Shown here: positions 1-24,783 of the stretch, in pieces
Layout of the letters: every line of letters starts with the position of its first letter
Position numbering within the stretch: the stretch's first letter is position 1
IMG/VR virus record: IMGVR_UViG_3300032304_002833
Span: 1 to 25,662 of that record
DNA from: a virus
DNA: 25,662 bases
Reading direction: 5' to 3' (one strand)
The notes under the pieces: generated by a model
Database searches by the model: none
The model's input: the letters and a program-made list of their open reading frames with translations, nothing else
What the model was told of the DNA's origin: nothing
Program-made: the position numbers and the translations under genes

Positions 1-294
1 AGAGGTGAACGCAATCGACTCATACTCAGCATGAGCTGGGCGTTCCGTGATGTATGGGAAAGTTTATACAGCCCAATCAATGTGTTGTTCATTGATGAGG
101 TAGTGGATTCGGGCATGGACACACAGGGTGTTGAAAATTCATTAGCATTGCTGAAAAAAATGAGCAGAGAACGCAACAAATCAATCTGGCTTGTGAGCCA
201 CAGAGACGAATTGGCTGGTCGTGTGGAAAACATACTGCGTGTGGTCAAAGAGGGAGGATTTACTTCCTACAACAACGATGTAGATATCACATAA
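1..294 (+). CDS. 46: gp46-like recombination endonuclease subunit, C-terminal part
   Basis: This is the C-terminal end of an SbcC/Rad50-type ATPase, the large subunit of the T4 gp46/gp47 nuclease that processes DNA ends for recombination-dependent replication. The reading frame is open to the left edge, so the N-terminus and most of the coiled coil are outside the window. Visible motifs are a Rad50-like signature stretch (GERNRLILSMSWAFRD), a Walker B strand VLFIDE followed by a D-loop-like segment, and an H-loop motif WLVSHRDE. The ATG at codon 11 is internal to the signature, so it is not the true start. The stop codon TAA forms part of the TAAATA element that precedes the next gene. The family call is firm; the gp46 name follows from the T4-like context. 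Confidence 0.88.
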   Translation, partial: RGERNRLILSMSWAFRDVWESLYSPINVLFIDEVVDSGMDTQGVENSLALLKKMSRERNKSIWLVSHRDELAGRVENILRVVKEGGFTSYNNDVDIT

Positions 295-318: not shown

Positions 319-972
319 ATGATACCGACCATGTCAATCCCTGATTTTTTGACTGCGCAAGAAGTTGAGTTGTTATTAGATCACTTTGACCGTTGTCCCT
401 ATGCTGTAGAAAACACAACACAACATCAAAATAAAACAATCATATACAATCGTCATAAAAACAGCGATTATAATCTTGAGGGTAGTTTGGTCAGAGAAAT
501 TATATATCCTAAACTAGAAAAAATAATAGGCCCTCACATGATGGACAATGGCTCCTTACTAGAGAGCCATTATCCCTATCCCATCCATGTTGACTCGCAT
601 CAAGACTCAGCAAAAAATAATTTTTATTGTCATTCTGATACCTATCAAAATCAGGCAGTGTTAATAAGTCTCAACGAGGACCCTTGTTTTAGAACCGTTA
701 TGTTTGAATATTTCGCGGATCTACTGGATTACAGTACAGCGCCCACCGGCGACGGCACGATCACTGATACCATACAGGACCCCAGGTACGATGATCTGGA
801 TCTCAGTCATCTGTCAGACAGTAATATCGAATTTATAAAGAATATCAAAATTGCCTCTGTGTATCATTGGAAAATTGGTTCTGCGCTGCTATGGCCAAGG
901 AACCAGTTGCACATGTCGACCAACTTTTATCATTCTGCCAAACAAAAAAAAGCCGTAGTAATCTTTTGTTAG
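319..972 (+). CDS. putative 2OG-Fe(II) oxygenase-like protein
   Basis: A 217-residue protein that looks like a 2-oxoglutarate/Fe(II) dioxygenase-fold enzyme. H90-x-D92 (in PIHVDSHQ) and H198 (in LLWPRNQLHMSTNF) are arranged as an HxD...H iron-binding triad, and basic residues near 210-211 could bind the co-substrate carboxylate. Several further histidines around 84-105 make the exact ligand set uncertain. The substrate cannot be read; relatives hydroxylate proteins, sugars, nucleobases or small metabolites. There is no signal peptide or membrane segment, so it should be cytoplasmic. The Shine-Dalgarno sequence is weak, and a second ATG at 331 is an alternative start. The next gene begins 10 bases after the stop, which suggests co-expression with the radical SAM enzymes. 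Confidence 0.6.
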   Translation: MIPTMSIPDFLTAQEVELLLDHFDRCPYAVENTTQHQNKTIIYNRHKNSDYNLEGSLVREIIYPKLEKIIGPHMMDNGSLLESHYPYPIHVDSHQDSAKNNFYCHSDTYQNQAVLISLNEDPCFRTVMFEYFADLLDYSTAPTGDGTITDTIQDPRYDDLDLSHLSDSNIEFIKNIKIASVYHWKIGSALLWPRNQLHMSTNFYHSAKQKKAVVIFC

Positions 973-982
973 AGACCTCGTC

Positions 983-2527
983 ATGCCCGATCTTTTGATT
1001 GCCACTGTGCCATTTACATATACCTTTGGCCCGTCATTGGCTCCGGCCTTGTTGAAATCCTGTGCACAGCAGGAAGGGCTGACTGCACAGGCCTGGGACT
1101 TGTCCGCTGAATTCAATGCAAGTTTCAAAAATCACCCGCACTACAGAGATATCACGACATGGTTAGGTGCCCCAGAGTTATCTCTTGATCCGGCTGCTGC
1201 GCAATTTTACTTTGCAGTGGTTAAACAATTTGCGGATCGTATCATAGCAATCAATCCAAGGTACTTGGCCTTAAGCATCTTGACACAGAACAGTCTGATG
1301 TTTGCCGAAGATCTGTGTTATCATGTCACTGTGCAAAACCCAGATATAAAGATAGTACTGGGTGGGTCTGGGCTAGATATCTTGCAACAGGATTTCAATG
1401 CCAGATGGTATGATCTCATGCTGGATTCTGGTTTGGCCGACACAGTGATCATAGGTGAAGGCGAAAAATCACTGGCACGGGTAATAAAAAACAATGTGTC
1501 GGGTGTGGTCAACGTGCCTCAACTCACTTCTCAGGATCTGGATTCTGTGCCATTCCCTGACTATAGCGACTATGATTTTTCTTTTTACCATACAGAAGCA
1601 GAAACTTATTGGCTGCTAAGAGAAAAAGTGAGGCAAGGGAATGAACACATTTTTTTAATCACTGCCAGCAAAGGCTGTGTCAAGGACTGTTCATTTTGTG
1701 ACGTTGGTAGAATCTGGAGCAAATTCCGATTTCGCAGCGGTGAAAGAGTAGCTGAAGAGATATTGTATCTGCATCAAAGATATGGAGCAAAATATTTTTC
1801 CTTCACCGACAGTCTCATGAATGGCGCGCTTAAACCTTATGCAATTATGAATGAGATCTTGGCAGAGCGATTACCAAATACTGTGAAATACGATGGACAA
1901 ATTATTTGCCGAAGCCAGAGAGAAATGCCGGAAAGATACTTTGAATTCATGTCTCGTGCAGGCTGTCATTTTGTTAGCATAGGCATGGAAAGTGGCAGCG
2001 AACAAGTGCGCATGCACATGGGGAAAGGTAGTAGGCAAGAGGATGTCCATTACACAACAGGCATGTTGATCAAACATGGCATACGACAAGGATGGAATAT
2101 CATTGCTGGATATCCCACAGAAACCGATCTCGATTGGCAACAAACTATGGATCTGATCAAGTATTGGTTACCAAGATCAAATGGTCTTATACAGATACAG
2201 CCCATTGATACGTTCCAGATGCTGGCCGGAACGCCCATGACAGAAACTGACCTTTTTCATGATCTAGATATCAAGACTGAGATAATCAATAACTACTCAT
2301 CGTTTGCGTGGACCACCGGATCCAATGCGGGGAACACACCTGAAACACGTGCAAGGCGCTTTATAGAACTCTGTGATTATCTGTTGACCTTTGATCCAGT
2401 GTTTTATCACTCTGTCAAGAACAAAATCGATCGGGTCAATCGGCGACTGTCATGGTACAAAGATGCAAAATCACACAAAAAAATCTTCCATATATCTCAA
2501 GCTCAAAATCAAACGCACGCCGACTAA
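983..2527 (+). CDS. B12-binding-type radical SAM enzyme
   Basis: A 514-residue enzyme of the cobalamin-dependent radical SAM type. Residues 1 to about 190 resemble a B12-binding Rossmann domain, with strands such as IVLGGSG (124-130) and IIGEGE (156-161); the classical DxHxxG cobalamin-ligand motif is not visible, as in many members of this class. The radical SAM core follows with C232-x3-C236-x2-C239, which should bind a 4Fe-4S cluster, and a later SAM-barrel strand VSIGMESGSE (331-340). The C-terminal part, with TFQMLAGTPM near 410-419, is typical of the class. Known relatives perform methylations, ring formations or other radical changes on unactivated carbon. The product here is unknown. 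The 3' end overlaps the next gene. Confidence 0.85.
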   Translation: MPDLLIATVPFTYTFGPSLAPALLKSCAQQEGLTAQAWDLSAEFNASFKNHPHYRDITTWLGAPELSLDPAAAQFYFAVVKQFADRIIAINPRYLALSILTQNSLMFAEDLCYHVTVQNPDIKIVLGGSGLDILQQDFNARWYDLMLDSGLADTVIIGEGEKSLARVIKNNVSGVVNVPQLTSQDLDSVPFPDYSDYDFSFYHTEAETYWLLREKVRQGNEHIFLITASKGCVKDCSFCDVGRIWSKFRFRSGERVAEEILYLHQRYGAKYFSFTDSLMNGALKPYAIMNEILAERLPNTVKYDGQIICRSQREMPERYFEFMSRAGCHFVSIGMESGSEQVRMHMGKGSRQEDVHYTTGMLIKHGIRQGWNIIAGYPTETDLDWQQTMDLIKYWLPRSNGLIQIQPIDTFQMLAGTPMTETDLFHDLDIKTEIINNYSSFAWTTGSNAGNTPETRARRFIELCDYLLTFDPVFYHSVKNKIDRVNRRLSWYKDAKSHKKIFHISQAQNQTHAD

Positions 2528-2906
2528 GACGCCAGATTTCATCGTGAAATTCAACGGTGTTGAACAGTCTTATGCCAGCGCACTTGATATGACTTATTGC
2601 TACCACATGGATGCAGAGTTTGGATCAAATTGCCTCACTGTTGAATTTGTGAACAAAGAGCCCGGCGACACAGAGATTGATGCAGCGGGTAATATCATCC
2701 ATGATCTCGCAGTGGAATTGGATGAATTATACATCGATAAATTTCCTGTGACTTCGTACCTTAAAGAGCAAGCAATTTATGTTTCTCACAACGGCACACG
2801 AGAGTACACCCATGGTTTCATGCACATGAACGGTGTGTTGACTCTGAATTTTTTATGTCCTGGTTTTTATTACATCAAAAAACATAAGATAATGGCGAAT
2901 CACTGA
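2463..2906 (+). CDS. beta-rich protein of unknown function, possible carbohydrate-binding-like fold
   Basis: I do not recognise this 147-residue protein firmly. It is rich in alternating hydrophobic strands (for example IYLKLKIKRTP, DFIVKFNG, GVLTLNFLCPGFYYIKK), which suggests a single beta-sandwich. A stretch reading DTEIDAAGNIIHDLAVELDE resembles small binding-module proteins of phages, but that is an impression. The start is uncertain: ATG 2463 overlaps the radical SAM gene by 65 bases, an earlier ATG at 2391 would overlap far more, and a GTG at 2544 just after the upstream stop would remove the first strands. It sits between two radical SAM genes in the same direction, so it may be a substrate-binding or accessory partner. 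Confidence 0.6.
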   Translation: MQNHTKKSSIYLKLKIKRTPTKTPDFIVKFNGVEQSYASALDMTYCYHMDAEFGSNCLTVEFVNKEPGDTEIDAAGNIIHDLAVELDELYIDKFPVTSYLKEQAIYVSHNGTREYTHGFMHMNGVLTLNFLCPGFYYIKKHKIMANH

Positions 2907-2917
2907 TTTGCATCGCA

Positions 2918-4072
2918 ATGGCAAAAGAGAGTAAAATTATCATGAAATTTGACTACTCAACTATCGACGAGTATCAAATTGAACTTACTTCTTACTGCAA
3001 TGCTGCCTGTCCCCAGTGTCCAAGGAATGATCTAGGCACAGGTATCAATCCCTACATGCCACTCACTCATCTTTCTAGATCTGTCATTGACTCTGCTTTT
3101 ACCACGGAACTTTGTCAGCGTTTACGACAGATATTTTTCTGCGGAAGTTACGGCGATCCTATCATGCATCCTGATTTCCGAAGCATACTGCGAGATTTTC
3201 GAAGAAAAAATCCCACATTGTGGCTTTATTTTCATACCAATGGAGGTGTACATGAAACAGATTATTGGCAAGAAATTGCAGAGATATTAGGAGGTCATGG
3301 TCAGATAGATTTTGGAATCGACGGGCTAGATGATACTCTACATCTCTATAGAAGAAATGTAAAGTTTGACAAAGTAATATCCAATGCACAGGCTTTTATC
3401 AATGCTGGCGGTCGAGCACAATGGAACTATATAGTGTTCCAACACAATCAACATCAGGTCGAAAAAGCAAAAGCGTTGAGCCGAGAAATGAAGTTTTTTA
3501 ATTTTTTGCCAAGACGAACTGGTAGATTTTTTCATCACGGACGAGAAGAAGAATTATCAAATTGGCCTGTTTACGATCGTCGGCAAGAAAAGCCCGTGTA
3601 CTTTTTAGAACCTCCCAGTGATCCGGAGTGGCGAAATGCTAGTACTAGTCGATTACCTCTGCTCAAGAATCAATATAAAGATCTTGCTGAGTATTTTGAT
3701 ACCACCTTGATTCAATGCGACGCACTGGTGGGTAAAAAAGTAGCCATCAACGCCGAAGGATTAGTATTACCCTGCAACTTTTTCAATCACAATCTTTATG
3801 ATGCTAGATTCTATCAAGATCTACTTCCAGGATCAAATCGGCTGCATTCTGTCAATGGTAACAATCAAGTAAGAATGTTCTTGGAAAAATATGGATTAGA
3901 AAACATCAATCTTCATCAAAAATCATTAGAACAAATATTCGAGTGTAAAATGTGGGAGGATCTTGTCCATAGTTGGAATCACAATCGAGAACAAGGTCGT
4001 TTGTTTGAATGTGCTATGACTTGCGGAGAGAAATTTACCAAAGTTTGGGATCAAGGAGGAAGTATAAAATGA
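2918..4072 (+). CDS. radical SAM enzyme with extra C-terminal cysteines (SPASM-like)
   Basis: A 384-residue radical SAM protein. The cluster motif is very close to the N-terminus: C27-x3-C31-x2-C34 (ELTSYCNAACPQCPR). GSYGDP near 77-81 matches the glycine-rich SAM-binding strand. C-terminal cysteines at 267, 286, 343, 365 and 369 are spaced like a SPASM/Twitch domain that holds auxiliary iron-sulfur clusters. SPASM enzymes modify peptides, aminoglycosides and other substrates, so the substrate is open. The start may instead be ATG 2942, which has a better purine-rich leader and retains the whole core. The stop overlaps the next ATG as ATGA, a sign of translational coupling to the dehydrogenase. 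Confidence 0.82.
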   Translation: MAKESKIIMKFDYSTIDEYQIELTSYCNAACPQCPRNDLGTGINPYMPLTHLSRSVIDSAFTTELCQRLRQIFFCGSYGDPIMHPDFRSILRDFRRKNPTLWLYFHTNGGVHETDYWQEIAEILGGHGQIDFGIDGLDDTLHLYRRNVKFDKVISNAQAFINAGGRAQWNYIVFQHNQHQVEKAKALSREMKFFNFLPRRTGRFFHHGREEELSNWPVYDRRQEKPVYFLEPPSDPEWRNASTSRLPLLKNQYKDLAEYFDTTLIQCDALVGKKVAINAEGLVLPCNFFNHNLYDARFYQDLLPGSNRLHSVNGNNQVRMFLEKYGLENINLHQKSLEQIFECKMWEDLVHSWNHNREQGRLFECAMTCGEKFTKVWDQGGSIK

Positions 4073-4662
4073 AAATGCTAGTAACTGGCGGTAATAGAGG
4101 TCTGGGTTTATTTTTATGCCAACATTTTGGGGCCGAGAGTATAAGTCGCGCCACAGGATTCGACATCACCAGAGAGGAAGATCAAAAACGCATCGCAGAT
4201 CTGAGTCAGGAATATGATGTGTTTGTCAACAATGCATTTGATGGGCCGTTCCAGGAAAGTTGGGCAAATTTTGGTCAGACCAATCTATTGTGGAGCGTAG
4301 CCGATGCGTGGCGACAACAAAACAAAAAAGGTTATATCATTAATATTGGCAGTGTGGGCAGCGAATCAGTCACTTCGCCGGATCCCCATTGGGAAACCTA
4401 TAGGATCAGCAAGTGCGCACTCAAAGCTCATAGTCGGCAATGGACCAAAGCATTCAAAGAAAATCAAGTCCTGTTCCGTACCAGTTTGCTTACCCTAGAC
4501 AGATTAGACACAGAACTCAGTCGGGGTCGTCCAAACTGGACAGGCAATGGTATAGAACTCATTGATGTGGCAAGATATATAGAAATGTTGCTTGACCTTA
4601 AATCTAATACCTGCATTGAAGAAATCATAAGCTGGGTAAACTTTGATCATAAACAACAATGA
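4069..4662 (+). CDS. short-chain dehydrogenase/reductase (SDR), short form
   Basis: A 197-residue NAD(P)-dependent oxidoreductase of the SDR family. TGGNRGLG at 6-13 is the nucleotide-binding TGxxxGxG motif, VFVNNAFDG at 51-59 corresponds to the NNAG strand, INIGSVGS at 91-98 carries the catalytic serine, and Y111-x3-K115 is the catalytic pair. It is shorter than the usual 240-260 residues, mainly in the C-terminal substrate-binding part. The ATG at 4069 has a strong AAGGAGGA upstream (4053-4060) and overlaps the preceding stop by four bases; ATG 4075 is a minor alternative. Its role is probably to reduce or oxidise a hydroxyl or keto group on the product of the neighbouring enzymes. That link is inferred from gene order. 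Confidence 0.85.
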   Translation: MKMLVTGGNRGLGLFLCQHFGAESISRATGFDITREEDQKRIADLSQEYDVFVNNAFDGPFQESWANFGQTNLLWSVADAWRQQNKKGYIINIGSVGSESVTSPDPHWETYRISKCALKAHSRQWTKAFKENQVLFRTSLLTLDRLDTELSRGRPNWTGNGIELIDVARYIEMLLDLKSNTCIEEIISWVNFDHKQQ

Positions 4663-5103
4663 ATGACTTGGCTTTACGAATCACAGGAAATCTCAGAGAT
4701 ACCCGAAGAATATGCTGGTTTTGTTTATCTCATAACCAATAAACAGACCGGTAGGATGTACATTGGCAAGAAACTCAGCAAATTTAAAAAAACCACATAC
4801 AAGACAATAAAACTCAAAAACGGCAAGAAGAAACGCAAGAAGATACGCGGTACCATAGATTCAGATTGGCAGACATATTACGGCAGTTCTCCGGAGTTAT
4901 CTCGAGATGTTGAACTGCTAGGCACAGAAAATTTCACACGCGAAATATTATACTACTGCAGGAGCAAAGCTGAATGCAGTTATATAGAGGCTCGCGAACA
5001 ATTCTCCCGCAGGGTACTTGAATCAGACGAATACTACAATGGTCACATACAGGTTCGGGTACATGGCTCACACATCAAAGGCAAACTAGGTATCAACGGC
5101 TAG
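4663..5103 (+). CDS. GIY-YIG-type nuclease-like protein
   Basis: A 146-residue protein with a GIY-YIG nuclease-like core: GFVYLITN at 19-26 and RMYIGKK at 31-37 form the two halves of the motif, and E109 in YIEAREQF is a candidate metal-binding glutamate. A very basic segment at 38-62 (many Lys) probably contacts DNA. In T4-like phages such stand-alone proteins include Seg homing endonucleases and uncharacterised relatives; which of these applies cannot be decided here. The start directly follows the dehydrogenase stop with no gap, so it is translated from the same message. It ends the rightward block and is followed by a gene-free stretch, a setting that would fit a mobile endonuclease gene. 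Confidence 0.7.
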   Translation: MTWLYESQEISEIPEEYAGFVYLITNKQTGRMYIGKKLSKFKKTTYKTIKLKNGKKKRKKIRGTIDSDWQTYYGSSPELSRDVELLGTENFTREILYYCRSKAECSYIEAREQFSRRVLESDEYYNGHIQVRVHGSHIKGKLGING

Positions 5104-5421
5104 CACAGGCCAACATCGTGTGCTCTAGATCTGGATCTCTGATCACAGCGACGGAAGTCCCATCGTACCCATGGGCACTCAACCACTACCCGCGAGGATG
5201 ATGATCACTTGTAAGCCCTGTGATTTGGTTGTTGGAAAAAGATTAAAAGGCAAAAAGAGGGGAGAAAAACCCCAGGCACCCAATCTGTGATAGCGTACAG
5301 ATCGTGTGTTGCCGTTGTGATAAGACGGAGTGAGCAGGTACCGGACAACCGCCTGCGTGGAACAAGTCTGTTCTGTAGCTCTAACGCTGTGTGACTGCGC
5401 CACTCGGATGATGCAGATATT

Positions 5422-5443
5422 CTTGGCCCGGCAACGGGCTAAG
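5422..5443. ncRNA. 9-bp hairpin with GNRA tetraloop, structured RNA candidate
   Basis: CTTGGCCCG pairs with CGGGCTAAG around a GCAA loop, with a single G-T wobble. This is a very stable hairpin with the GNRA loop typical of functional RNAs when read on the plus strand. No T-run follows it, so it is not an ordinary terminator. Whether it is transcribed is unknown. Confidence 0.3.
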
Positions 5444-5523
5444 TGTGACCACTTGATCTGGATGATAACGAATCTTTCGCTTCGCTCAGAAAAGAAACAG
5501 TTGATGAGTGAAACGAAATCAAC

Positions 5524-5542
5524 AGACTTGCGGAGCAAGTCT
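5524..5542 (-). terminator. hairpin just past the gp51 stop, probable leftward terminator
   Basis: AGACTTGC and GCAAGTCT form a perfect 8-bp stem with a 3-base loop, starting two bases beyond the leftward gp51-like stop codon. The downstream sequence on the minus strand is moderately T-rich but interrupted, so the terminator is plausible rather than classical. Confidence 0.45.
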
Positions 5543-5543
5543 C

Positions 5544-5729
5544 TTAAAAGAAAGGCAGTCCGCTCTTCTTGGTCGTCTCGAGATTGTCTTTGATGATCTT
5601 GGAAACGATTTCTCGTTCCCCATGACTGAGATTCATGGCTTCGGTGTAGGTAAGACCGCCGCGCATGTACCAAATCATTTTCAGTGCTTCTTCTCTTATG
5701 GTGTTAGACTCCTGATCCATGCCGTCCAC
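5544..5729 (-). CDS. 51: gp51-like baseplate hub assembly protein
   Basis: A 61-residue protein resembling T4-like gp51, which helps assemble the baseplate hub without being part of the virion. The core REEALKMIWYMRGG, the downstream LSHGEREIVSKIIKDNLETTK and the end SGLPFF are the recognisable parts. The start drawn is a GTG at 5729; an ATG at 5720 would lose only three residues. The frame stays open upstream into the end of the gp26-like gene (reading SDSDRISTL before the GTG), so a longer form starting at a rare codon is possible. It follows the gp26-like gene closely in the same direction, as expected for two hub genes in one message, and a hairpin lies just past its stop. Confidence 0.72.
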   Translation of the reverse strand: MDGMDQESNTIREEALKMIWYMRGGLTYTEAMNLSHGEREIVSKIIKDNLETTKKSGLPFF

Positions 5730-5758: not shown

Positions 5759-6601
5759 TCAGGAGCCGGACGCGAAAAAACGCGCCATATCCATGGTGAA
5801 TGCTTGTTCGTATTCATTCAGGCATGCGGCACATTTCATTTTCAGTGGCTGCAGTTCGCTGGCTTCTCTGAGAGCCACAGCGTGATCTTTGATACGATTG
5901 AAGATCGTCCGATCGCAGTTGGTCATGAATTCCAAAATTTGATCGGATTCTTGCACTACCGCAGTGGGCGTGCGTATTTCACTGATGCTCTGGCTGAGCA
6001 CTACCACAGTGGCCTCGACCATGGTCTTCATCACCCTGTTGAGTTGGGCCACTTTGGCTTCTTCGGGTGCGTCAGCGTCGCTCATGATCTGCATGGTCTT
6101 CTGCTGTTCAAACTGTACCAAGCTGTTGGCTGTGATCTCGCGATAGTTCAATGGTCTGAACGCTATGTTGAGATCTCCCAACACTAGGTTCTTGCTGTAA
6201 TCGCCAGAACGGATTTTGTCAATCACGGATCTTAGATCAAGTCCAAATGCTGCTTCGGTTGAGCACTTAGGGCAAGTGGTATCTATGTCCATGCTGTGTC
6301 CATAACTGGCTATCCGTATGGCCACTAAAATAGAGTCAAGATCGGTGCTGGGCACGGCCCAGGCATCTAGGATGTTGGGCACACAGCTCTGTATCACTGA
6401 CACTGTGCTCTCACCGTTGAACAAGGCATCTGGAGTGCGATAGGTTATCTCGTCGATGGCAGTCATGGGATACACCGGCAATTCTCCGTTGCTGGGCATG
6501 TCTAGACTGCCTGCAGGCCAGCCGCGACCGCCACTGGGCAACTTGATGTAGATGGCCGGCTGCCGGAAAAACTGGCTAAGAGGGTTGGTATTTTTGGACA
6601 T
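5759..6601 (-). CDS. 26: gp26-like baseplate hub subunit
   Basis: A 280-residue protein of the T4 gp26 baseplate hub family. The N-terminal part (FFRQPAIYIKLPSGG, then LPVYPMTAIDEITYRTPDAL) is the typical conserved segment of the T4-like hub subunit. Two CxxC pairs, C110-x2-C113 and C257-x2-C260, probably bind one zinc ion. The hub sits at the centre of the baseplate around the tail tube. It is transcribed leftward from a TATAAGTA element at 6626-6633, against the direction of nearly all neighbours, and gp51 follows it. The ribosome-binding site is weak (CAGG about 9 bases ahead of the ATG). No truncation is visible. Confidence 0.87.
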   Translation of the reverse strand: MSKNTNPLSQFFRQPAIYIKLPSGGRGWPAGSLDMPSNGELPVYPMTAIDEITYRTPDALFNGESTVSVIQSCVPNILDAWAVPSTDLDSILVAIRIASYGHSMDIDTTCPKCSTEAAFGLDLRSVIDKIRSGDYSKNLVLGDLNIAFRPLNYREITANSLVQFEQQKTMQIMSDADAPEEAKVAQLNRVMKTMVEATVVVLSQSISEIRTPTAVVQESDQILEFMTNCDRTIFNRIKDHAVALREASELQPLKMKCAACLNEYEQAFTMDMARFFASGS

Positions 6602-16692: not shown

Positions 16693-17277
16693 ATGGCCGC
16701 ATTTGTGTTGGGGAATGGTTTAAGCCGAGCAGGCATCGATGTCAACGAACTGGCAAAGGCTGGAGGGGTCTACGGGTGCAACGCCTTGTACCGGACCCAC
16801 AGTCCCACTGCCTTGGTGGCCACAGATCGACCTATCGCCGAAGAGATACAGAATTCTGGATACGCAAAATCTAACAAATTTTATACCCGCAGGCCCTTGC
16901 CTGGATCAGGAGCTCAACCTGTGCCCAAGGCCTATTTTGGCTACAGTTCCGGTCCCATCGCCATAGCCTTGGCGGCTATAGATGGGCAACAGCCAATATA
17001 TTTGCTGGGATTTGATCTTGGCCCAGGGTTGGATGGTCGTTTCAACAATCTCTATGCCGACACCCAGCACTACAAGCGCCTGGGCAGCCAGCCCACATTT
17101 ACTGGAAACTGGATCAAACAAGCCACCCGTGTGATGCGTGATTTTCCAAATCAGCGATTCATCCGTGTGTATGGAGATACCACCCATGAAATAGGGGAAT
17201 TCGGCCGGCTACACAACTACGAACGCATGGCTTTAAAGCAGTTCCAAGACACGCTAAATAAGCCAAAGGAATCGTAA
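16693..17277 (+). CDS. Rossmann-like protein, possibly glycosyltransferase-related
   Basis: A 194-residue protein with an N-terminal VLGNGLSRAGID motif, then VYGCNALYR and ALVATDR, and later a strand-helix-strand reading LAAIDGQQPIYLLGFDLG. This order resembles DUF115/Maf- and GT42 sialyltransferase-type Rossmann proteins, in which GNG contacts a sugar nucleotide. The protein is shorter than most such enzymes (about 250-300 residues or more), so activity is not certain. It is distantly related to the product of the gene at 24118, which lacks the GNG motif. A terminator stem covers its ribosome-binding site. The next gene starts right after its TAA stop. It may modify fibre or host surface sugars, but that is inference. 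Confidence 0.6.
   Translation: MAAFVLGNGLSRAGIDVNELAKAGGVYGCNALYRTHSPTALVATDRPIAEEIQNSGYAKSNKFYTRRPLPGSGAQPVPKAYFGYSSGPIAIALAAIDGQQPIYLLGFDLGPGLDGRFNNLYADTQHYKRLGSQPTFTGNWIKQATRVMRDFPNQRFIRVYGDTTHEIGEFGRLHNYERMALKQFQDTLNKPKES
17253..17260 (+). promoter_or_regulatory. late-promoter-like element GCTAAATA inside a gene end
   Basis: It lies in the last codons of the Rossmann-like gene, 17 bases before the ATG 17278, with AAAGGA between. The same octamer precedes the gene at 22508. Confidence 0.4.
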
Positions 17278-23557: not shown

Positions 23558-24121
23558 ATGCCTACCGTATTACAATTCCGCCGTGGAACCACTGCCCAGA
23601 ACAACTCATTTGTTGGTGCCTCGGGTGAACTCAGTATTGATACCCAAACTGATTCCATAAGGGTACACGACGGTTCTACAGCAGGTGGGTTTTTGACCAA
23701 TGCCAAGGAAGCAAAGTATGCGGACGTGGCAGAAAGATATCATGCTGATGCTGTGTATGGAGCAGGTACTGTGGTCTGCTTTGGCGGCGAGCGAGAAATC
23801 ACACAATCCGTATCCGACTGCGATGTCCGGGTCATGGGTGTAATTTCAACTGATCCATACTGTGTGATGAACAGTCCACATCGGCGTCCAGATCTTACCA
23901 ACGAATGGCATCCACCTATCGCTTTGTTGGGGCGTGTTCCTACCAAGGTCGTAGGCATCGTGCGCAAAGGCGACCGCATGGTTGCAAGTGCTACTCCAGG
24001 CCATGCCCGAGCATGGATTGAAAACGATGATCCACCAACCAGCGCTGTGATTGGCAAAGCAGTAGGAGATCACAATGCCAGTGGTGCAGGCATGATAGAA
24101 GTGTTAGTAGGACGGCTGTGA
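23558..24121 (+). CDS. short fibre protein sharing the C-terminal domain of the large fibre
   Basis: A 187-residue protein. The N-terminal MPTVLQFRRGTTAQNNSFVG with GELSIDTQTDSIRVHDG is the well-known start of phage fibre and tropism-type proteins. From residue 54 (YADVAERYHAD, then VVCFGGEREIT, GRVPTKVVG, VIGKAVGD, and MIEVLVGRL at the end) it aligns along its length with the last ~125 residues of the large fibre at 19986, apart from an insertion near NSPHRRPDLTNEW. It may be a separate receptor-binding tip or a stand-alone maturation domain. AGGAG lies upstream. Its stop TGA overlaps the GTG of the next gene by four bases, so those two are translated together. Confidence 0.72.
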   Translation: MPTVLQFRRGTTAQNNSFVGASGELSIDTQTDSIRVHDGSTAGGFLTNAKEAKYADVAERYHADAVYGAGTVVCFGGEREITQSVSDCDVRVMGVISTDPYCVMNSPHRRPDLTNEWHPPIALLGRVPTKVVGIVRKGDRMVASATPGHARAWIENDDPPTSAVIGKAVGDHNASGAGMIEVLVGRL

Positions 24122-24783
24122 CACTACCGTGCTATCGCCGCGACTACAGCGGCGAGTTTTTAGTCACAGAAACCCGCTGGTCCGGTGGTACCAAACAACA
24201 GAGCCGCGAGTGGATCCCTAACCCTATTGAAAATCATCATATCTCTGGCCGTGCCGCGGTCATCGTCAGTGATACCGATAGAGAGTTGTTTGATTATGCC
24301 AGACTACAGCGGCATCGCGGCGGACTGCTTGGAAAAAAGCGATTACAGACCTATGCTACCGGTGGTATTTGGCGAGACATGATCTTGGACTTTTGTGTAG
24401 GCAAAGAACGCAGCGAAATTGACGGCATGGTCGCAAAAAAATACGATGAAAGATGCACTGTTTACACCACACCTCGTATTGTATTGACCTATCCTGGGCG
24501 ACTGTATCTTATCCCATTGGCACCATTGATGGACAGCCAGGCCACGGCAGTATATCTAGCGGCTTTTGATGGACACAAAGAAATTTTCTTATTAGGTGCA
24601 AATAAACACACTCCTTGGCTGAGCACCAGCACCATCGCTAACATCGGCAGCATAATGGCTGCTTATGATACCACCCAGTTCATAGTAGTGGGTGTTGAAA
24701 GCCAAGTTCCTGCCGAATGGAGGCAATGCCGGAATGTGACTTGCCAAGACTACAGGTCCTGGATCAGTTACTGCGATGTCTGA
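24118..24783 (+). CDS. divergent Rossmann-like protein, relative of the gene at 16693
   Basis: A 221-residue protein of unknown function, starting at a GTG that overlaps the preceding stop. The second half carries YLIPLAPL, then AVYLAAFDGHKEIFLLGANK, the same strand-helix-strand as LAAIDGQQPIYLLGFD in the protein at 16693, and later FIVVGVES parallels FIRVYGDT. The nucleotide-contact GNG of that protein is missing here (the matching region reads AAVIVSDTDRELFDYARL), so it may be non-catalytic or bind something else. Its 3' end overlaps the convergent Nudix gene by 16 bases, without a terminator between. A role in fibre or sugar modification is inferred from the neighbours. Confidence 0.58.
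   Translation: MTLPCYRRDYSGEFLVTETRWSGGTKQQSREWIPNPIENHHISGRAAVIVSDTDRELFDYARLQRHRGGLLGKKRLQTYATGGIWRDMILDFCVGKERSEIDGMVAKKYDERCTVYTTPRIVLTYPGRLYLIPLAPLMDSQATAVYLAAFDGHKEIFLLGANKHTPWLSTSTIANIGSIMAAYDTTQFIVVGVESQVPAEWRQCRNVTCQDYRSWISYCDV

Follow-up and report, generated by a model that had tools for sequence, protein, structure and literature searches.

Phages rich in radical S-adenosylmethionine (SAM) enzymes have been known since 2010, and their function is not established. Here we ask what such genes do, and whether they act together, in one locus at positions 319 to 5103 of a 25.7-kb virus record from IMG/VR (IMGVR_UViG_3300032304_002833, analysed over its full 25,662 nucleotides and referred to below as the window). 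A preliminary description had read six genes there, g1 to g6, as a single biosynthetic or modification pathway of a T4-like phage. That picture is only partly right. The genes share one slot that holds two separate modules: a core made of the radical SAM enzyme g4 and the short-chain dehydrogenase/reductase (SDR) g5, and an optional unit made of the B12-type radical SAM enzyme g2 and the small beta protein g3. We favour, with moderate confidence, the view that a jumbo T4-superfamily phage tailors sugars through this modular locus; here the sugar substrate, the chemistry and the purpose are inferred. The locus yields two minimal testable enzyme units: a radical SAM–SDR pair that occurs naturally fused in some contigs, and a B12-type enzyme with a lectin-like partner. 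The six genes are as follows.

319..972, plus strand: g1, oxygenase-like protein by motif (H90xD92...H198), optional gene of the slot
983..2527, plus strand: g2, B12-type radical SAM enzyme (PF04055, E=2e-20), first half of the optional module
2463..2906, plus strand: g3, CBM60-like small beta protein, second half of the optional module and constant partner of g2
2942..4072, plus strand: g4, core radical SAM enzyme with one auxiliary-cluster (twitch-like) domain (PF04055, E=3e-9)
4069..4662, plus strand: g5, core SDR oxidoreductase (TGGNRGLG, NNA, YRISK; PF00106, E=1e-8)
4663..5103, plus strand: g6, SegE-like GIY-YIG protein (PF19835, E=7e-33), right border of the slot

All six open reading frames (ORFs) lie head to tail on the plus strand in the order and at the coordinates first described. 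The 65-base overlap (the g3 ATG at 2463 lies inside g2, which ends at 2527), the ATGA overlap of g5 (start 4069) with g4 (end 4072) and the exact abutment of g5 (end 4662) and g6 (start 4663) were all recovered. Gaps of at most about 12 bases had also been claimed, which holds between g1 and g2 (10 bases, 972 to 983) but not between g3 and g4, where the gap is 35 bases because we take g4 to start at ATG 2942. Nearly all g4 relatives begin at about the equivalent residue, and the longer start at 2918 is less likely.

Two modules in one variable slot

Relatives of the slot were drawn from IMG/VR, and 80 slots, defined as loci with distinct core proteins between gp46 and the GIY-YIG gene, were compared. 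Some of them were retrieved by searching with a beta protein, which inflates the proportion that carries the B12 module. The commonest filling is B12-type radical SAM enzyme, beta protein, radical SAM enzyme and SDR (28/80), followed by two radical SAM enzymes with an SDR (13/80) and the radical SAM–SDR pair alone (9/80). Other fillings are rarer, the oxygenase-like version of the window accounting for three of the 80, including one near-identical copy of the window itself. Four loci (L029, L032, L033 and L074) carry an alternative filling of three genes from unknown families (c32-c33-c34) between gp46 and the radical SAM–SDR pair.

Both pairs are kept with great constancy. The B12-type radical SAM enzyme and the beta protein are found together in 53 of the 80 slots and are both absent from the other 27, never one alone, although the significance of this co-presence is inflated by the relatedness of the loci. 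The pairing itself is independent of the query bias, since loci selected by radical SAM genes alone show it as well: the beta gene directly follows the B12-type gene in 47/50 cases, and the remaining three comprise one gene directly preceded by a beta gene (L002) and two 690-residue proteins with a C-terminal extension (L034/L035). That extension matches the beta family only suggestively (hhalign E=0.039) and is not counted as a fusion. The SDR directly follows the core radical SAM gene in 81/81 loci selected in the same way, and in five contigs (L185, L186 and L203-L205) the two are naturally fused into one protein of 568 or 573 residues, whose halves are 57-62% identical to g4 and 48-60% identical to g5.

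The two pairs vary independently of each other. The radical SAM–SDR pair occurs without the B12 module in the 27 slots mentioned above, and the B12 module occurs without the radical SAM–SDR pair in L002 and L209. Genes of the g2 type are placed after the SDR in L060 and L015 and on the other strand in L075 and L081. Pairwise distances across the 41 loci with one copy each of the B12-type enzyme and the beta protein correlate at 0.93 between these two, at 0.06 between the B12-type and the core radical SAM enzymes, and at 0.60 between the core radical SAM enzyme and gp46; the core therefore shares the history of the phage, and the two genes of the B12 module are swapped together. An exchange can be read directly in L002, which matches the window at 4-2909 and 4617-5526 and carries a second beta/B12-type pair in place of g4-g5, of which a degraded beginning of g4 (CNAASPQY) and the final SDR codons persist as scars. 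In L194-L197, two B12 modules adjoin in mirrored order (B12-beta-beta-B12), which suggests stacking of modules.

A single six-gene pathway is ruled out by this independence, that is, by the 27 slots lacking the B12 module and the correlation of 0.06. The six genes are not conserved as a set, but the two pairs are constant; homologs do occur with different partners, yet in the same genomic place. An explanation that we regard as somewhat unlikely is that the pairs are separate cargo, co-located only through a recombination hot spot beside the SegE-like GIY-YIG gene and each acting alone. The scarred exchange in L002 and the independent movement of the B12 module fit such an account, which explains co-location but not why the pairs are kept without exception and partly fused. 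Separate cargo is, moreover, compatible with sugar tailoring by each pair.

The core pair and the optional pair

The g4 protein has the radical SAM barrel (PF04055) with invariant C27, C31 and C34. Across 24 phage and bacterial sequences it has seven invariant cysteines overall, of which exactly four (C267, C286, C365 and C369) lie in the C-terminal part. The preliminary description had called g4 SPASM-like; a full SPASM enzyme is excluded by the lack of any match to PF13186 together with these four C-terminal cysteines, which point to one auxiliary cluster rather than a full SPASM domain and make the protein twitch-like. BtrN-type twitch radical SAM dehydrogenases likewise carry one auxiliary-cluster domain after the radical SAM barrel, although their sequence similarity to g4 is negligible (PDB 4m7t, E=0.07). 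The assignment of g5 as an SDR stands, with TGGNRGLG, NNAFDG and YRISK motifs and a PF00106 score of 35.4 bits against a cut-off of 26.6.

A scan of IMG/VR returned at least 152 viral relatives of g4; the 80 kept are 65-71% identical to it, apart from one 100% copy. Isolate phages yielded no close relatives of g4, g5 or g2: those of g4 reach only 25-28% identity, and for g5 none was found at all. In bacteria, SDR relatives lie beside g4-like radical SAM genes in six genomes of Bdellovibrionota: one (L084) has relatives of g4 and g5 (43% and 42% identity) close together, and in five more (L149-L153) the SDR adjoins the radical SAM gene. Microcoleus-type cyanobacteria (L094-L108 and L110) have a protein of about 527 residues that joins a g4-like radical SAM domain to tetratricopeptide repeats, the repeats having been checked in L103 only.

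In g2, described from the outset as a radical SAM enzyme, C232, C236 and C239 are invariant within the PF04055 barrel. Its candidate B12-binding domain retains a conserved GGxG, and its PF02310 match (E=6.5e-6, 26.4 bits) falls below the cut-off of 32.1; cobalamin binding by g2 is putative. The g2 family profile matches AprD4, CysS and OxsB among PDB structures. The enzyme resembles class B radical SAM methyltransferases (GenD1/GenK, CysS) in domain order and profile similarity, although all scores fall far below the family cut-offs. To our knowledge, no dedicated lectin-like partner protein has been described for that class.

The partner of g2 appears to be lectin-like. The AlphaFold model of g3 (predicted local distance difference test, pLDDT, 86.6) matches 2xhh in a Foldseek search (E=3e-4, probability 1.00, template-modelling scores 0.45/0.54), the sole PDB match with E<0.001. 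We take 2xhh to be a calcium-dependent carbohydrate-binding module of the CBM60/CBM36 type. The g3 sequence itself matched no family; among 22 g3 relatives the most frequent Pfam match is CBM60 (PF16841; 3/22, best E 0.0013), and a PDB sequence search with these relatives returned no match. The predicted structure, of moderate strength as evidence, indicates that g3 has a CBM60-like beta-sandwich fold, and g3 may bind sugar. It differs from CBM60/CBM36 modules in that it stands alone as a phage protein and is paired with a radical SAM enzyme, where they form part of polysaccharide-degrading enzymes. It groups with two small beta proteins of related phages, c7 and c39 (hhalign probability 96% and 88%). 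Viral contigs were searched for such proteins with one beta protein as query, and the beta alignment has no conserved stretch. The beta-rich protein had been proposed as a carrier or binding partner; the constant pairing supports a binding partner of one of the two radical SAM enzymes, g2.

A possible though tentative proposal is that a cobalamin radical SAM enzyme works with a separate, co-evolving CBM60-type lectin subunit that would recruit a polysaccharide, so that an intact surface or virion glycan is C-methylated or edited by radical chemistry, with phages swapping such pairs as serotype-like modules. If true, a B12-radical enzyme that has its own binding subunit would be a novelty in enzymology.

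Proposed sugar tailoring and competing readings

The tailoring-type function suggested in the preliminary description is retained as our favoured reading, with a sugar as the presumed substrate. The sugar assignment draws on the CBM60-like fold of g3, on the glycosyltransferases that adjoin some bacterial g4 relatives, and on sugar-related genes beside radical SAM clusters in a 364-kb relative of the window phage, in Pelagibacter phage Mosig and in Campylobacter phage CP220. In the proposed mechanism, the target of g4 would be a carbinol carbon in a sugar or cyclitol. A 5'-deoxyadenosyl radical made by the enzyme would remove hydrogen from it, and the only auxiliary [4Fe-4S] cluster of g4 would help to carry that carbon on to a ketone (or to dehydration). 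With NAD(P)H, g5 would then reduce or oxidise the same position, giving net epimerisation or deoxygenation. With g3 binding a glycan, the optional enzyme g2 may methylate or otherwise edit one of that glycan's carbons. The product would change a glycan on the host surface, on the virion or linked to DNA, and the likeliest purpose would be to keep out competing phages or to counter host defences.

The template for the core step is AprD4/AprD3, in which a radical SAM enzyme and an NADPH-dependent reductase partner carry out C3' deoxygenation of a sugar in apramycin (PMC5461906). By analogy g4 and g5 may epimerise or deoxygenate a sugar; this is a likeness, not membership, as the common logic is only that of radical SAM enzyme plus reductase. 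AprD4 resembles the class of g2, not g4, and profiles of g4 gave no AprD4 match.

Several observations weigh against a sugar substrate. The slot itself has no recognisable glycosyltransferase. The nearest PDB sequence to g4 is SkfB, a peptide-modifying enzyme, and the best NCBIfam match of g2, far below its cut-off, is to C-methyltransferases of ribosomally synthesized and post-translationally modified peptides (RiPPs). Several of the Bdellovibrionota radical SAM–SDR pairs have neighbours unrelated to sugars, namely a beta-eliminating lyase, an S-adenosylhomocysteine hydrolase and a fumarylacetoacetate (FAA) hydrolase. Both enzyme matches, along with the way in which g2 and g3 pair one to one and co-evolve, would suit a RiPP-like system in which g3-type or phage structural proteins are the radical SAM substrates and g2 C-methylates g3. 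We consider this unlikely, because g3-type proteins are folded CBM60-like domains of 139-190 residues with few invariant residues (only K65, D81 and G124) and without a leader/core layout, and because neither g2 nor g4 matched a leader-peptide-binding domain. SDRs are also not known to be typical of RiPP-like systems.

The wider phage group is rich in radical SAM genes. PF04055 matches number 16, 13, 11, 11 and 7 in five contigs ranging from 364 to 135 kb, the first four being close relatives with common content, and 2-9 in 13 further fragments; the 16 come from the whole 364-kb contig (G377, that of L056). In this contig, five radical SAM genes within 9 kb (L221, 6497-15070) lie beside an AMP-binding enzyme, GDSL-like proteins and a carbamoyltransferase, and two more (L223, 1568-7695) lie near a nucleotide-sugar-type NAD-dependent epimerase/dehydratase.

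Isolate phages offer partial analogues. The virulent Campylobacter phages CP220 and CPt10 encode 11-12 radical SAM proteins, five of them in an interchangeable cluster (Timms 2010, PMC2853527). Like the window group they are radical SAM-rich, and they also carry amidinotransferase and nucleotide-sugar transferase-like genes; in CP220, five radical SAM genes stand with two of the latter. They differ in that their proteins share only about 24-28% identity with g4 and with the slot's second radical SAM enzyme, occupy another genome site, and have no annotated SDR or CBM60-like partner. Pelagimyophages have a host-recognition cluster with radical SAM cassettes (PMC7029224). They and Mosig, in which three MoaA-like genes accompany a UDP-Ara4N-type aminotransferase and a carbamoyltransferase, share with the window phage an aquatic origin, a T4-like genome and exchangeable radical SAM cassettes; the pelagimyophages differ in that the window slot sits between gp46 and the GIY-YIG gene.

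These analogues bear on two further alternatives. Hypermodification, in which phage DNA would receive a modified sugar or base as protection against restriction, would suit a jumbo T4-superfamily phage, a slot adjoining gp46 and the sugar-transfer genes near radical SAM clusters in the isolates. Against it, the slot of the window contains no recognisable enzyme for modifying nucleotides or bases, and optional slot genes vary between phages, whereas a DNA-modification core is usually kept; we find this reading decidedly unlikely. Auxiliary metabolism, by which the genes would aid the infected host with a cofactor or a low-oxygen reaction, is what Timms et al. (2010, PMC2853527) suggested for the Campylobacter phages and their 11-12 radical SAM proteins; to us it seems the least probable. 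The g4 family is distant from every named cofactor enzyme (all NCBIfam scores far below cut-offs), the partner of g2 is lectin-like, and exchange at a fixed position resembles diversifying selection rather than housekeeping. Exchange in one slot also offers a route to asking which glycan or other target phages alter.

Flanking genes and phage context

The flanking genes g1 and g6 belong to neither module. The oxygenase-like label of g1 stands as to its motif, since H90-x-D92 and H198, the HxD...H pattern that Fe(II)/2OG oxygenases carry in a double-stranded beta helix, are conserved in three sequences; it gained no family or profile match, and its AlphaFold model has a pLDDT of 38. A search for additional relatives found none new, the gene is present in only three lineages, and we regard it as a rare extra of the slot, oxygenase-like by motif only. 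Purifying selection acts on g1, g2 and g3, with ratios of nonsynonymous to synonymous substitution of 0.11, 0.11 and 0.15 against L002.

The GIY-YIG assignment of g6 is borne out as SegE-type (PF19835, 113.9 bits against a cut-off of 25). The gene is kept where the radical SAM–SDR pair or the SDR is missing (L002, L156 and L209), and 454 phage records contain relatives of it, among them hundreds of T4-like phages, with other neighbours. It looks like phage backbone, and a role as pathway enzyme is excluded on these grounds. Its PHROG, phrog_447, and many phage records call this family 'NAD synthetase', which looks like a spread misannotation; we dropped the label because the family is SegE-type GIY-YIG.

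The other landmarks of the window are as follows.

1..294, plus strand: 3' end of gp46, SbcC-like recombination subunit (phrog_77, E=1.5e-20), left border of the variable slot
5544..5729, minus strand: 61-residue phage protein downstream of g6, position kept across relatives
5759..6601, minus strand: T4 gp26-like baseplate hub (PF12322, E=6.6e-14)

The gp46 border is common to all complete related slots. Tail and portal genes lie beyond the gp26-like hub, and within the window two proteins that look non-structural (16693-17277 and 24118-24783), with no NCBIfam match, stand amid tail-fibre-like genes. The T4-type gp46, gp26 hub and portal confirm the T4-like assignment and place the phage in the T4 superfamily; the nearest isolates by portal are the jumbo phages Atu_ph07, PA5oct, CBB, GAP32 and Phosso, and contigs related to the window reach 364 kb. 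The cassette is AT-richer than the structural genes (39-44% against 51-54% GC). Elsewhere in the set, a phage ORF in L026 (1-1641) carries, as judged by eye, an intein-like insert.

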